Of a stretch of DNA of 42,721 nt, positions 1-37,575 are shown in pieces. Under the pieces are notes generated by a model. It was not told where the DNA came from. It made no database searches and worked only from the letters and a program-made list of their open reading frames with translations. A program made the position numbers and the translations under genes. Source of the DNA: Ignavibacteriota bacterium (GTDB taxonomy: Bacteria; Bacteroidota; Ignavibacteria; Kapaibacteriales; UBA961); the NCBI GenBank assembly GCA_016197185.1, contig JACPWH010000008.1, forward strand, positions 1 through 42,721, read 5' to 3'. Positions within the stretch are counted from its first letter, which is position 1; every line of letters begins with the position of its first letter.

Positions 1-73
1 GTTGATTCTTCAAAGATTCCAATGCTACTTTTGCTTTGAATTCTGATGTATATCGCCTGCGTTGTTTTGCCAT
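1..73 (-). CDS. IS3-family transposase OrfA (HTH), N-terminal 24 aa only
   Basis: Minus-strand ATG at 73 gives MAKQRRRYTSEFKAKVALESLKNQ, a typical IS3 OrfA N-terminus; runs off the window. Confidence 0.85.
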   Translation of the reverse strand, partial: MAKQRRRYTSEFKAKVALESLKNQ

Positions 74-140
74 TTTTAACTCCGTTTTTGGATGCAAATA
101 TACATCTTATTTTACTGTCCAGTTTTTGGGGGTAACTTCA
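1..140 (-). mobile_element. IS3-family insertion sequence, left end, truncated by window edge
   Basis: Minus strand from 140 reads TGAAGTTACCCCCAAAAACTGGACAG, an IS3-type terminal inverted repeat starting TG, followed by an orfA start. Confidence 0.85.
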
Positions 141-212
141 AACAAAATGAAAAGCATTCTGTATAAGAAATAAGTAGAATGAATATATACGTATAAGGAA
201 TATATAAAAAAA

Positions 213-237
213 CACCCTTCATGTGTAATGAAGGGTG
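213..237 (-). terminator. Rho-independent terminator (minus strand)
   Basis: Perfect 10-bp stem CACCCTTCAT/ATGAAGGGTG, loop GTGTA; followed on minus strand by a T run. Confidence 0.7.
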
Positions 238-319
238 CCAATCAAGTAACAACTTGACTATGGGCTTGATAATTATCAGTCTTTTATATAAAAAGTGTTT
301 GTCTTACTAACTGCTTATT

Positions 320-28641: not shown

Positions 28642-29820
28642 ATGTCCACTCTATCGGTTTGCTGTCTTGCACGAAATGAAGAGTCATTCTTGCCAAAAAT
28701 GTTGGCGAGCGTGAAAGACATAGCCGACGAAATTATAATTTTAGATACCGGCTCTACCGACAGAACAATTGAAATTGCTCTGGAGCACGGAGCGCGAGTA
28801 GAAACTGCCGAATGGGAAGAAGATTTTGGGGCAATGCGAAATAAGCTGTTGGGTCATGCAACTCAGGATTGGGTGTTGATGATTGATGCAGATGAACGAA
28901 TCACTCCCAAAAATGCAGAGCGTATCAAGACTGCTATCACAAGAAGGGCAATAGCATATCAATGTATGGTGATGAATGTTTTTCCATACAAAATGTTAAC
29001 GTCGTTTTTACCTTTTGCTTCCATCAGACTTTTCAGACGGGACGATCAATTTTACTATTCAGAACGTGTTCACGAAAGTATTCAGCATTCATTAACAAAA
29101 CAATCAGTGGATGTTATCAGTTCTGAAATTGAAATTTTTCATTATGGATTTTCGGAAGGAAGAGCTGCACGCCGTTTTCGTAACAAGAGGGTTTTTGAAT
29201 CAGAGCTTTTGAGAAATCCAAATGATCTTTGGATTCGCTCTCATCAAGGATTGTCTCTATTCATGGATCAAGAATTCGGTAAAGCTGAAAAATCATTCTG
29301 GATAGCAGTGTCAGCATTACGAGAAATTGAGAACGAAACGCGCTCAATTCTCATGGCTCTCATAGCCGAAATTTATCGGTTACAACACAAACCTGTACAA
29401 GCTAAACTTCAGGCACTAAGGGCAAAGAGGTTAATGACCGATAATTCGCTTGCAGATTATATCACAGCTTTGGTAGATTTGGATTCAAAGTCCTACGACA
29501 GTGCGGAACGTCATCTTGAATACCTTGATGCAAATACACTTGCATCAAGATATTTTACAGTAAACAAAGGTGAACTATATACGCAAATTATCAAATGTTT
29601 GCTTCATCTCGGGAGGCATGATACAGCCCTGCAATATGCAGAGATTATGATGGAAACGCCTACGTATGAAGGAATGATTATCGGAGGAGCACTATCGGAA
29701 CGTAAGAAAGACTATGCCCATGCATTAGAATATTATCGTAGGGCTTTGCCAATTGCACCCGTACCGTCAGAGGTACAAATTAAAATCGAGAATTGCCAAA
29801 AATTATTACAAAGTGTGTGA
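28642..29820 (+). CDS. Family 2 glycosyltransferase with TPR-like C-terminus
   Basis: MSTLSVCCLARNEESFLPKMLASVKDIADEIIILDTGSTDRTIEIA...DWVLMIDADERI. Confidence 0.9.
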   Translation: MSTLSVCCLARNEESFLPKMLASVKDIADEIIILDTGSTDRTIEIALEHGARVETAEWEEDFGAMRNKLLGHATQDWVLMIDADERITPKNAERIKTAITRRAIAYQCMVMNVFPYKMLTSFLPFASIRLFRRDDQFYYSERVHESIQHSLTKQSVDVISSEIEIFHYGFSEGRAARRFRNKRVFESELLRNPNDLWIRSHQGLSLFMDQEFGKAEKSFWIAVSALREIENETRSILMALIAEIYRLQHKPVQAKLQALRAKRLMTDNSLADYITALVDLDSKSYDSAERHLEYLDANTLASRYFTVNKGELYTQIIKCLLHLGRHDTALQYAEIMMETPTYEGMIIGGALSERKKDYAHALEYYRRALPIAPVPSEVQIKIENCQKLLQSV

Positions 29821-29863
29821 TAATAGTAGGTAACCACTCAAAAATTAAGATAGAGGAGTTATA

Positions 29864-30904
29864 ATGTCCACGTTATCGGTTTGTTGTCTTGCTCGAAATG
29901 AAGAGTTATTCTTGCCAAAAATGCTCGCAAGTGTTCGAGATATTGCTGATGAAATTATAATATTGGATACTGGCTCTACTGATGCAACAATAGAGCTTGC
30001 AAAAGCATTTGGAGCTCGGGTTGAAATTGCCGATTGGAATGATGATTTTGGAGCAATGCGTAATAAAGTGCTAAGCTATGCAACTAAAGACTGGGTATTA
30101 ATGCTTGATGCTGATGAACTGGTGTACGCTGAGAGGATTCATGAATCGGTAGATGTTTCACTCCGCAAACAGACTCTCATGCCTCTGCAATCTGAAATTG
30201 AAATTCATCATTATGGATTTACTGACGGGAAACCACTCAGGAGAATTCGCAACCGAAGGAGCTTCGAAGCAGAACTGAATAAAAACCCAACCGATTCCTT
30301 TGTGCGGACGCATCTTGCATTATCGTTGTTTCTTGAGAAAGATTATCATAAAGCTGAAAGTTATTTTGATATAATCCTTACGACGCAATCCCGTGATTTG
30401 ACTCCTGAAGCGAGGTCAATCATCATGGCTTTACTTGCGGAAATTTACCGTTTACAACAAAAACCTGTTCAGGCAAAAATGCAGGCACAGCGTGCTATGC
30501 GGCTCATGGGGGGGAATTCACTTGCCGAGTATATTATGGCGTTGGTGGATATTGACGAAAAATTATACGAAGTCGCTGAACGTCGTTTGCAAACAATTGA
30601 CTCCAATATGCTCACGCAGCGATTCTTCTCGGTTCACAAAGGCGAACTTTATACGGAAATTATCAAATGCTCTCTAAGGGGAGGAAAGTTTGATCAGGCA
30701 TTCCAATATGCTGAACTGATGCTTGAAACGCCTACACACGACGGAATGATGATTGGTGGGGCACTCTGCGAGAAAAAGCGTGACTATACGACTGCTCTTA
30801 AATTCTATCAACACGCACTGCCTATCTCGCCTGTACCGAGTGAGGTGCAAGCGAAGATTGAGAATGTGGAGCGGATATTGGCGGCGCAGGAAGCACAAGA
30901 GTAA
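29864..30904 (+). CDS. Family 2 glycosyltransferase paralogue, internally deleted
   Basis: Near-collinear with 28642-29820 but ~51 residues missing after DADE (LMLDADE-LVYAERIHES). Confidence 0.88.
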   Translation: MSTLSVCCLARNEELFLPKMLASVRDIADEIIILDTGSTDATIELAKAFGARVEIADWNDDFGAMRNKVLSYATKDWVLMLDADELVYAERIHESVDVSLRKQTLMPLQSEIEIHHYGFTDGKPLRRIRNRRSFEAELNKNPTDSFVRTHLALSLFLEKDYHKAESYFDIILTTQSRDLTPEARSIIMALLAEIYRLQQKPVQAKMQAQRAMRLMGGNSLAEYIMALVDIDEKLYEVAERRLQTIDSNMLTQRFFSVHKGELYTEIIKCSLRGGKFDQAFQYAELMLETPTHDGMMIGGALCEKKRDYTTALKFYQHALPISPVPSEVQAKIENVERILAAQEAQE

Positions 30905-35664: not shown

Positions 35665-35856
35665 AAAGAGCATCAGAAATTGAAACAAAACCGTATCATC
35701 TTTCACAAATTCAAATGCAATTTACTAAAATCGTTCTATTTATACACTATCAAACTAAGATAGGGAGTGTGGGGGAGATGAACAAATCCTTGAATATATG
35801 TGAAATAATGAATTTATTTATTAGTTGAAAATAATGATATAGTAGTTTCATACATC

Positions 35857-35991
35857 TCATCTCAGTTTATCCATTATATATTTCACATATTCACCATGTT
35901 TGACAGGATGCCGAATTATTTTCTCAAATTTTCCCGATAGTTTAGCCTGCGACCAGATGATAATTTCTTGTTCGGGGAATTCAACATGCAA
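35857..35991 (-). CDS. Short ORF or gene remnant (44 aa, TTG start)
   Basis: Hand-read (L/M)HVEFPEQEIIIWSQAKLSGKFEKIIRHPVKHGEYVKYIMDKLR*; protein-like composition but no recognised family. Confidence 0.25.
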   Translation of the reverse strand: MHVEFPEQEIIIWSQAKLSGKFEKIIRHPVKHGEYVKYIMDKLR

Positions 35992-36033
35992 TATTTAATA
36001 GAACTTACCCTAAAAAAACCTCACAGAGGTAAT

Positions 36034-36774
36034 CTATTTAGACATATTCTTACTCTTGAAATCCTCTACTAATTTTAAGGTATGCTCTAATGACTTTTTA
36101 TTCTTCCACCCTTGGTGTCCGGGAATGATGTAGTTAGGTTTCTCACATTTCGTTTGAATGGTTTTGATTGTAGAAGCCCATGCTCGGACTTTAGCATCTG
36201 CTAAATTGCCAAGCACAGGTGAATCAGTGCTCTTTATCAGACAACCGCCATATAATATTTTTTCATGAGCAAACCAGATAACGATATTATCAGAAGTGTG
36301 ACCTCCTCCGGCAAACACAGTTTGAAATGAATATTGACCGATTGTAAAGGTAGTATCGTTCTCAAAATGAAATTCAGCCAGTTTTTCATTTTTCTCACGG
36401 GAAATTGAGTCTGTTTGTAACGATGTATAAGTCTTAATTCCTTGATGGCGGTAAAATTCCAGACCGGCGGTTCGGTCATTATGCGAATGTGTAGCAACAC
36501 ACATAATGACTTTAACATTGTGTTTGCTTTCAATACTGTCCTGTAGCGGCTGGAACTGTGTTGTATCCCACGGAGAATCTATCATGATTGCTCCGTCGTT
36601 TGTAATTACATACATTCCATTGGCAGGGAAGGGATTCCCGTCTAACATCCTGTAGGTTGTAAATACATAGAAGTCTCCTGTCAGATGGGAAATCTTCAAT
36701 TTTGCTTCGGGTACTTTGCCATAGAGGGTACTTGTAAGAAGTATTCCGAATAGAAGAGTTAGAATAGGTTTCAT
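36034..36774 (-). CDS. Secreted subclass-B1-like metallo-beta-lactamase
   Basis: Signal peptide; THSHNDRTAG (HxHxD), GGGHTSDNIVIW, YGGCLIKS, IIPGHQGWKNKKSLEHTLKL: all six B1 zinc-site residues. Confidence 0.82.
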   Translation of the reverse strand: MKPILTLLFGILLTSTLYGKVPEAKLKISHLTGDFYVFTTYRMLDGNPFPANGMYVITNDGAIMIDSPWDTTQFQPLQDSIESKHNVKVIMCVATHSHNDRTAGLEFYRHQGIKTYTSLQTDSISREKNEKLAEFHFENDTTFTIGQYSFQTVFAGGGHTSDNIVIWFAHEKILYGGCLIKSTDSPVLGNLADAKVRAWASTIKTIQTKCEKPNYIIPGHQGWKNKKSLEHTLKLVEDFKSKNMSK

Positions 36775-36952
36775 TATGCTCAGAATGTATTAATGTTTAT
36801 TGACAGAGTTCTCATACAAAAATACATTATCTACTTGTATTTTCTTTTATTCTTTGGTATCCATTGATATAATATTTATGTTTGAATACATAACAGTGAA
36901 TTGGTTGTTTCCTTAGAAAACAATATTTTTTTCTCTACAGTGTATTTTACAA

Positions 36953-37459
36953 ATGAAAATTCTCACCTCAATATTTGTAATTTCCATATTCATCATATCA
37001 GGATGTACCAATCCGTTTGCACCTAAACTTTCAGATACACCAATCAGTTTTTCCGGAACAGGAGATCAACATACAGTAGATGGGGTTTTCCAGACAATTA
37101 AATACTCTTATCAATATAAAGATACAGTTAGCTATGGTAAGCTCCTGTCACCTGATTTTATCTTTACGTACCGTGATTACGACAAAGGGACCGATAATTC
37201 GTGGGGGCGTGAACAGGAAATGCTGACGACTGCCGGATTATTCCAAGCAGCACAAAATTTGGATATTGTATGGAATGAAGTTATTAGCCCTCATGGAGAT
37301 TCATTAGTAAAAGATATATCGCGAGGTTTCAATCTTACGATTGTTTTTAGTCCTACGGATATTCTTCATATTGACGGTCGAGTGGAATTACGGCTTCAAA
37401 GAGAAACATTGGATGGGGTTTGGATGATAGTTCGATGGCGGGATTCCTCGAACTATTAA
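36953..37459 (+). CDS. Putative small lipoprotein, NTF2-like character
   Basis: MKILTSIFVISIFIISGCTNPF lipobox; C-term GVWMIVRWRDSSNY similar to 3680-4282 protein. Confidence 0.65.
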   Translation: MKILTSIFVISIFIISGCTNPFAPKLSDTPISFSGTGDQHTVDGVFQTIKYSYQYKDTVSYGKLLSPDFIFTYRDYDKGTDNSWGREQEMLTTAGLFQAAQNLDIVWNEVISPHGDSLVKDISRGFNLTIVFSPTDILHIDGRVELRLQRETLDGVWMIVRWRDSSNY

Positions 37460-37531: not shown

Positions 37532-37567
37532 AAACGCAACTTAGTATAAATTTATTAAGTTGCGTTT
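37532..37567 (-). terminator. Terminator hairpin downstream of tRNA-Arg
   Basis: 12-bp stem AAACGCAACTTA/TAAGTTGCGTTT, T-rich minus-strand tail. Confidence 0.7.
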
Positions 37568-37575
37568 GATTTCTG

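Follow-up and report, generated by a model that had tools for sequence, protein, structure and literature searches.

We identified, in a 42,721-nucleotide stretch of DNA (the window) from an Ignavibacteriota bacterium, a gene whose product is best explained as a secreted, di-zinc metallo-beta-lactamase (MBL) of subclass B1 and of the BlaB/IND/CAM type; the gene is probably a single-gene unit and would owe its patchy occurrence to horizontal spread or differential loss. We put the probability of this reading at about 0.9. The host genome comprises 3.36 Mb in 314 contigs and is 93% complete. Its valyl-tRNA synthetase shows 52% identity to the enzyme of the Ignavibacteria bacterium isolate BA6 and 42-47% to those of Bacteroidia MAGs. 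The host shares its GTDB class with an Ignavibacteria MAG, G226, which has the same DNA as the BA6 record, and therefore probably stands outside the class Bacteroidia. The non-clinical lineage that had been supposed in the first-pass annotation is supported.

The open reading frame proposed in that annotation is confirmed with its ends at exactly 36034-36774, and it lies on the minus strand, which had not been stated; it has 246 codons and a stop, and the plus strand across the same positions contains many stop codons. All of the motifs quoted earlier (HSHND, GGGH, GGCLIKS and PGHQGW) were found and align to the standard zinc-ligand positions (Table 1). In a 71-row alignment all six zinc ligands coincide with the positions in BlaB, IND-7, GIM-1, IMP-1, VIM-1 and NDM-1, the equivalents of Lys224 and Arg121 also being present, and the six ligands together with the lysine are invariant among 23 aligned sequences. 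The signal peptide that had been suggested corresponds to a hydrophobic, signal-like N-terminal segment, in which hydropathy peaks at 2.64 over residues 4-14 and falls after residue 13. No lipobox cysteine was seen in this N-terminus. Judged from its hydrophobicity, the segment appears to be the secretion signal that is expected of subclass B1.

Table 1. Features of the MBL gene, its predicted product and its immediate surroundings (positions in the window).
Feature	Position	Strand	Basis
Subclass B1 metallo-beta-lactamase (MBL), 246 aa + stop	36034..36774	-	ORF, NCBIfam, Pfam PF00753, PDB sequence match, AlphaFold2, Foldseek
Predicted protein layout: signal peptide at residues ~1-19, mature domain at residues ~25-243			
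Signal-peptide-like N-terminus MKPILTLLFGILLTSTLYG	36718..36774	-	hydropathy; predicted N-terminal helix of lower confidence (AlphaFold2)
HSHND, residues 96-100: His96, His98, Asp100 = H116, H118, D120; followed by Arg101 (R121)	36475..36489	-	alignment
His159 (in GGGH) = zinc ligand H196	36298..36300	-	alignment
Cys178 = zinc ligand C221; Lys181 = carboxylate-binding K224 (in GGCLIKS)	36232..36243	-	alignment
His220 (in IPGHQGW) = zinc ligand H263	36115..36117	-	alignment
Terminator-like hairpin ACCTCTGTGAGGT and trailing TTTTTT, a few bases past the MBL stop	36018..36030	-	consensus scan
MBL-only stretch, about 1.2 kb, unmatched at the DNA level in two genus-mates	35766..36952	.	DNA comparison with G001 and G002

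At the level of sequence, the likeness of the predicted protein to B1 enzymes is far above chance, as the NCBIfam and phmmer E-values indicate. It passes the NCBIfam model of the B1 equivalog (NF033088; 243.6 bits, cut-off 200, E 1.7e-72) and that of the BlaB/IND/MUS group (NF012146; 284.9 bits, cut-off 270, E 4.2e-85). The cut-offs of the named families were missed (bits/cut-off: BlaB 233.5/500, CAM 296.8/535, bla-B1-FLAV 318.1/450, PEDO-3 256.4/400, MUS/TUS 233.7/400, IND 187.7/430). Among these the bla-B1-FLAV model (NF000450) scores highest, over residues 4-241, and remains under its own cut-off; the second best is the model of the CAM family (NF033895; CAM-1 of P. aeruginosa and CAM-2 of a Pyrinomonadaceae MAG), which is matched over its full length but likewise below threshold. 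The best solved relative is BlaB, with an E-value of 9.7e-65 for its crystal chain 1m2x in phmmer and an identity of 42% over 217 residues, followed by IND-7 (37%), GIM-1 (32.5%) and NDM-1 (25%).

The AlphaFold2 model, a check that had been proposed in the first-pass annotation, reached a pLDDT of 93.5 and a pTM of 0.86 and predicts the alpha-beta/beta-alpha MBL fold known from B1 crystal structures. Foldseek placed BlaB (1m2x) at the top with a TM score of 0.97 (by target length) and an rmsd of 1.1 A, followed by a Pontibacter MBL, GIM-1, IND-7 and BcII. The predicted protein thus has fold, zinc ligands, K224 and length in common with BlaB of Elizabethkingia/Chryseobacterium meningosepticum, but differs from it in an identity of only 42%, in a score far under the cut-off of the BlaB model (NF033107) and in a host that is probably not a member of the Bacteroidia. 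With IND-7 (PDB 3l6n) it shares the B1-4 group and the catalytic set at 37% identity.

Phylogenetic trees were built from 59 rows and from 35 rows. In both, the MBL falls inside the radiation of BlaB and IND-7 and apart from GIM, IMP, VIM and NDM. The 26-row set uniting the MBL with BlaB and IND-7 has a support of 97/92; the branching order within this group, including the forks near the MBL row, is poorly supported. Its tree neighbours are enzymes from MAGs of an uncultured Bacteroidetes (L002), a Bacteroidia member (L006), a member of the same phylum (L081) and Ferruginibacter (L003). The nearest sequences found are L002 (60% identity), L003 (57%) and one from Saprospiraceae (L004, 56%), environmental MAG genes that resemble the MBL in motifs and size but are found in other hosts and in unrelated gene neighbourhoods. 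The earlier assignment to subclass B1 is therefore upheld by NF033088, the aligned zinc ligands, the tree and the BlaB-like fold, and that to the BlaB/IND type by NF012146, by BlaB as best solved relative and by the grouping with BlaB and IND-7.

Such enzymes were described by Berglund et al. as group B1-4, with hosts among Bacteroidetes and Firmicutes (PMC5637372), and CAM-1, a carbapenemase of clinical P. aeruginosa, was placed in the same group (PMC9241868). A B1 family counts as new if it is less than 70% identical to every known B1 enzyme (PMC5637372). Since no relative found exceeds 60% identity, the value of the best one, and none among the plasmid matches reaches 60%, any novelty of the MBL would be that of such a 70%-identity family and not that of a deep, uncharacterised branch. 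The suggestion of an uncharacterised B1 branch is not supported at branch level, the MBL being nested in the known BlaB/IND/CAM/FLAV radiation.

In B1 enzymes Zn1 is bound by H116, H118 and H196 and Zn2 by D120, C221 and H263; the hydroxide that bridges the two ions attacks the carbonyl of the beta-lactam, Lys224 binds the carboxylate of the substrate, and hydrolysis extends broadly over beta-lactams with the exception of monobactams. By this mechanism the Ignavibacteriota enzyme would be exported to the periplasm and hold two zinc ions, its zinc-bridging hydroxide would attack the beta-lactam carbonyl while Lys224 grips the carboxylate, and penicillins, cephalosporins and carbapenems would be opened in the periplasm, leaving monobactams untouched. 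By analogy, activity on beta-lactams is likely: CAM-1 and CAM-2 make E. coli BL21 resistant to carbapenems, with an imipenem MIC raised to 32 mg/L and that of aztreonam unchanged (PMC9241868), and imipenem was hydrolysed by 18 of 21 predicted B1 genes (PMC5637372). It is not certain, because the other 3 of the 21, all belonging to B1-3 and none to B1-4, were inactive in E. coli (PMC5637372). It might be argued that the protein has the B1 fold but acts naturally on a substrate other than beta-lactams, beta-lactamase activity being secondary or absent, as the host is an uncultured environmental bacterium, the MBL gene has no partner resistance genes as neighbours and certain predicted Bacteroidetes B1 proteins were without imipenem activity (PMC5637372). 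We consider this very unlikely, since every catalytic residue is retained, K224 and R121 included, the predicted fold is all but identical to that of BlaB, the curated B1 equivalog cut-off is exceeded and the relatives CAM-1 and CAM-2 of the same group are carbapenemases (PMC9241868).

The MBL gene is flanked on one side by an OmpA-family gene, dxs, two glycosyltransferase-like genes and valS, and on the other by a lipoprotein-like gene, tRNA-Arg, DUF494, YbeY-like and molybdopterin/ThiF-like genes, several of these genes being named by reading only. Similarity to the genus-mates at the DNA level breaks off near 35765 on the OmpA side, for G001 as for G002, and is found again from about 36996 onwards, within the lipoprotein-like gene. 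The OmpA-family and lipoprotein-like genes are conserved, the latter being found on another contig in G001; the MBL region has been rearranged. Loss of synteny on both sides of the gene, in an assembly of 314 contigs, could also point to a chimeric contig that carries the MBL of another organism binned with the host genome. This is extremely unlikely: by identity to G001 and G002 both flanks (OmpA-family gene and dxs; lipoprotein-like gene, tRNA-Arg and DUF494) belong to the same genus, GC and GC3 of the MBL gene match those of its neighbours, and a chimera would require a foreign 1.2 kb inserted between two flanks of the host's own.

The consensus scan for terminator-like hairpins returned 2 sites against 0.6 expected, which is weak evidence alone. 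Given the hairpin after its stop, the MBL gene is probably transcribed alone, and would thus form a single-gene unit with its own terminator-like hairpin. No convincing sigma-70 promoter was found upstream of the gene on the minus strand by consensus scan. Several further observations concern the surrounding genes. The lipoprotein-like protein of 168 aa (36953-37459) has no Pfam match and represents an uncharacterised conserved family, with 55-82% identity in six other genomes of the host's own family and of another family of the order. A near-perfect inverted repeat, AAACGCAACTTAGTA / TATTAAGTTGCGTTT (37532-37567), is located just past the 3' end of tRNA-Arg and is possibly its terminator. 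The two tandem glycosyltransferase-like proteins (28642-30904) are paralogs with nearly identical N-termini, the second of which seems to be shorter in its interior than the counterpart in G002.

The MBL gene is absent from the genus-mate G001, whose genome is 100% complete. None was seen in G002, where one contig stops 733 bp past the OmpA gene and another ends within DUF494; because contigs end there, this absence possibly reflects an assembly gap, and the firm absence is that in G001. BlaB-type copies occur in 2 of 14 genomes of the family and in few of 123 genomes of the order, two further order genomes (G009 and G019) carrying BlaB-type B1 genes. At class level, 12 of 294 sampled genomes contain BlaB-type genes (E < 1e-69), and in the phylum 34 of 396 sampled genomes yielded B1 relatives with E-values no higher than 1e-40. 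B1 genes have been reported in 22.4% of Bacteroidetes genomes (PMC5637372).

The first-pass annotation had noted that no mobile element flanks the gene, which agrees with the surrounding ORFs: no transposase, integrase, integron or ISCR element was found among those at 25.9-42.7 kb, which read as housekeeping or unknown genes, so that a recent transfer is unsupported by any mobile element. Carriage on plasmids was considered and rejected, the 2711 matching plasmid records all being less than 60% identical (best GIM-1, 32.5%), as was a viral origin, since the IMG/VR scan returned no relative. The tRNA-Arg at 37575, near whose 3' end synteny with the genus-mates breaks, was also dismissed as an integration site in view of the lack of an integrase and of convincing flanking direct repeats. 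A rearrangement rather than an island is indicated, because what separates the tRNA from the MBL gene is the lipoprotein-like gene, which is conserved in the genus and located elsewhere in G001. The GC content of the MBL gene is 0.39 and that of the window 0.38, and its GC and GC3 fit the neighbouring genes; any transfer was therefore not a recent one from a donor of differing composition.

The suggestion that this is an intrinsic resistance gene, that is, a vertically inherited chromosomal beta-lactamase lost in several relatives, would accord with this GC content, with the lack of an observed mobile element nearby and with the BlaB-type genes of G009 and G019. We nevertheless regard it as doubtful, although a good deal less remote than a chimeric contig. 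The gene is missing from the complete genus-mate, from most genomes of the family and from most of the 123 of the order; its 1.2-kb stretch is not shared with relatives whose flanking genes are conserved; local synteny is not conserved; and the copies from its family and order branch apart from it and have unrelated neighbourhoods. An AU test disfavours uniting it in one clade with the same-family copy (p 0.044) or with the same-family and same-order copies together (p 0.026), these p-values being marginal and the groups having been picked after the first tree was seen. From these trees, the MBL is probably not sister to the other BlaB-type copy of the family. An accessory gene, either spread horizontally or lost differentially, is a better description of it than an intrinsic, fixed vertical trait, and its patchy occurrence would have arisen by horizontal spread among environmental Bacteroidota or, alternatively, by differential loss.

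Other genes related to beta-lactamases were observed in the host and its relatives. In a genome of the same order (G044), L064:10579-12426 encodes a protein of 616 aa that begins with a signal-like segment and joins a B1 MBL domain (NF033088, 200.6 against 200 bits) to an entire GH18 chitinase-family domain (PF00704, E 1.3e-53). Its MBL domain keeps all zinc ligands and carries arginine in place of K224. No such fusion was found in the other genomes of the order and no paper on one in the literature; the protein may be a genuine bifunctional enzyme, or else a peculiarity of this one genome. In G009, of the same family, a tight cluster (L062:373-2844) combines a glyoxalase/bleomycin-resistance-type VOC gene, a GNAT acetyltransferase gene, a B1 MBL gene and a methyltransferase gene. 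The blaCAM gene likewise adjoins a GNAT gene (PMC9241868); unlike blaCAM-1, the MBL gene of the window has no adjoining GNAT gene, and no ISCR element was seen. The order and class also contain a second group of B1-like MBLs (L012-L014, L018, L021, L023, L076-L080), which have cysteine at position 121 (HxHxDC) and form a supported clade of their own in the 59-row tree. Elsewhere in the host genome, class A beta-lactamases are represented only by a borderline match to PF13354 (22.5 bits) in a 537-aa ORF.

B1 enzymes that hydrolyse carbapenems are a concern in the clinic, and where they come from in the environment is known only in part. Judged by its sequence, the MBL is an ordinary further member of a known, widespread group, and nothing found here is as much as 70% identical to it. 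The general picture is unchanged by it, B1 genes being common in Bacteroidetes and another one of less than 70% identity being expected; the probable position of the host outside the class Bacteroidia is mildly interesting. Our work adds one intact B1 member, predicted to be functional, from an uncultured lineage in which its occurrence is patchy. A more far-reaching interpretation, which we put forward tentatively and at somewhat below even odds, is that it founds a new B1 family (<70% identity) outside the Bacteroidia, that B1-4 carbapenemases cross the classes of Bacteroidota in the environment and that a blaCAM-type reservoir exists there. If this is true, uncultured lineages would belong to the reservoir from which blaCAM-like genes reach clinical bacteria.
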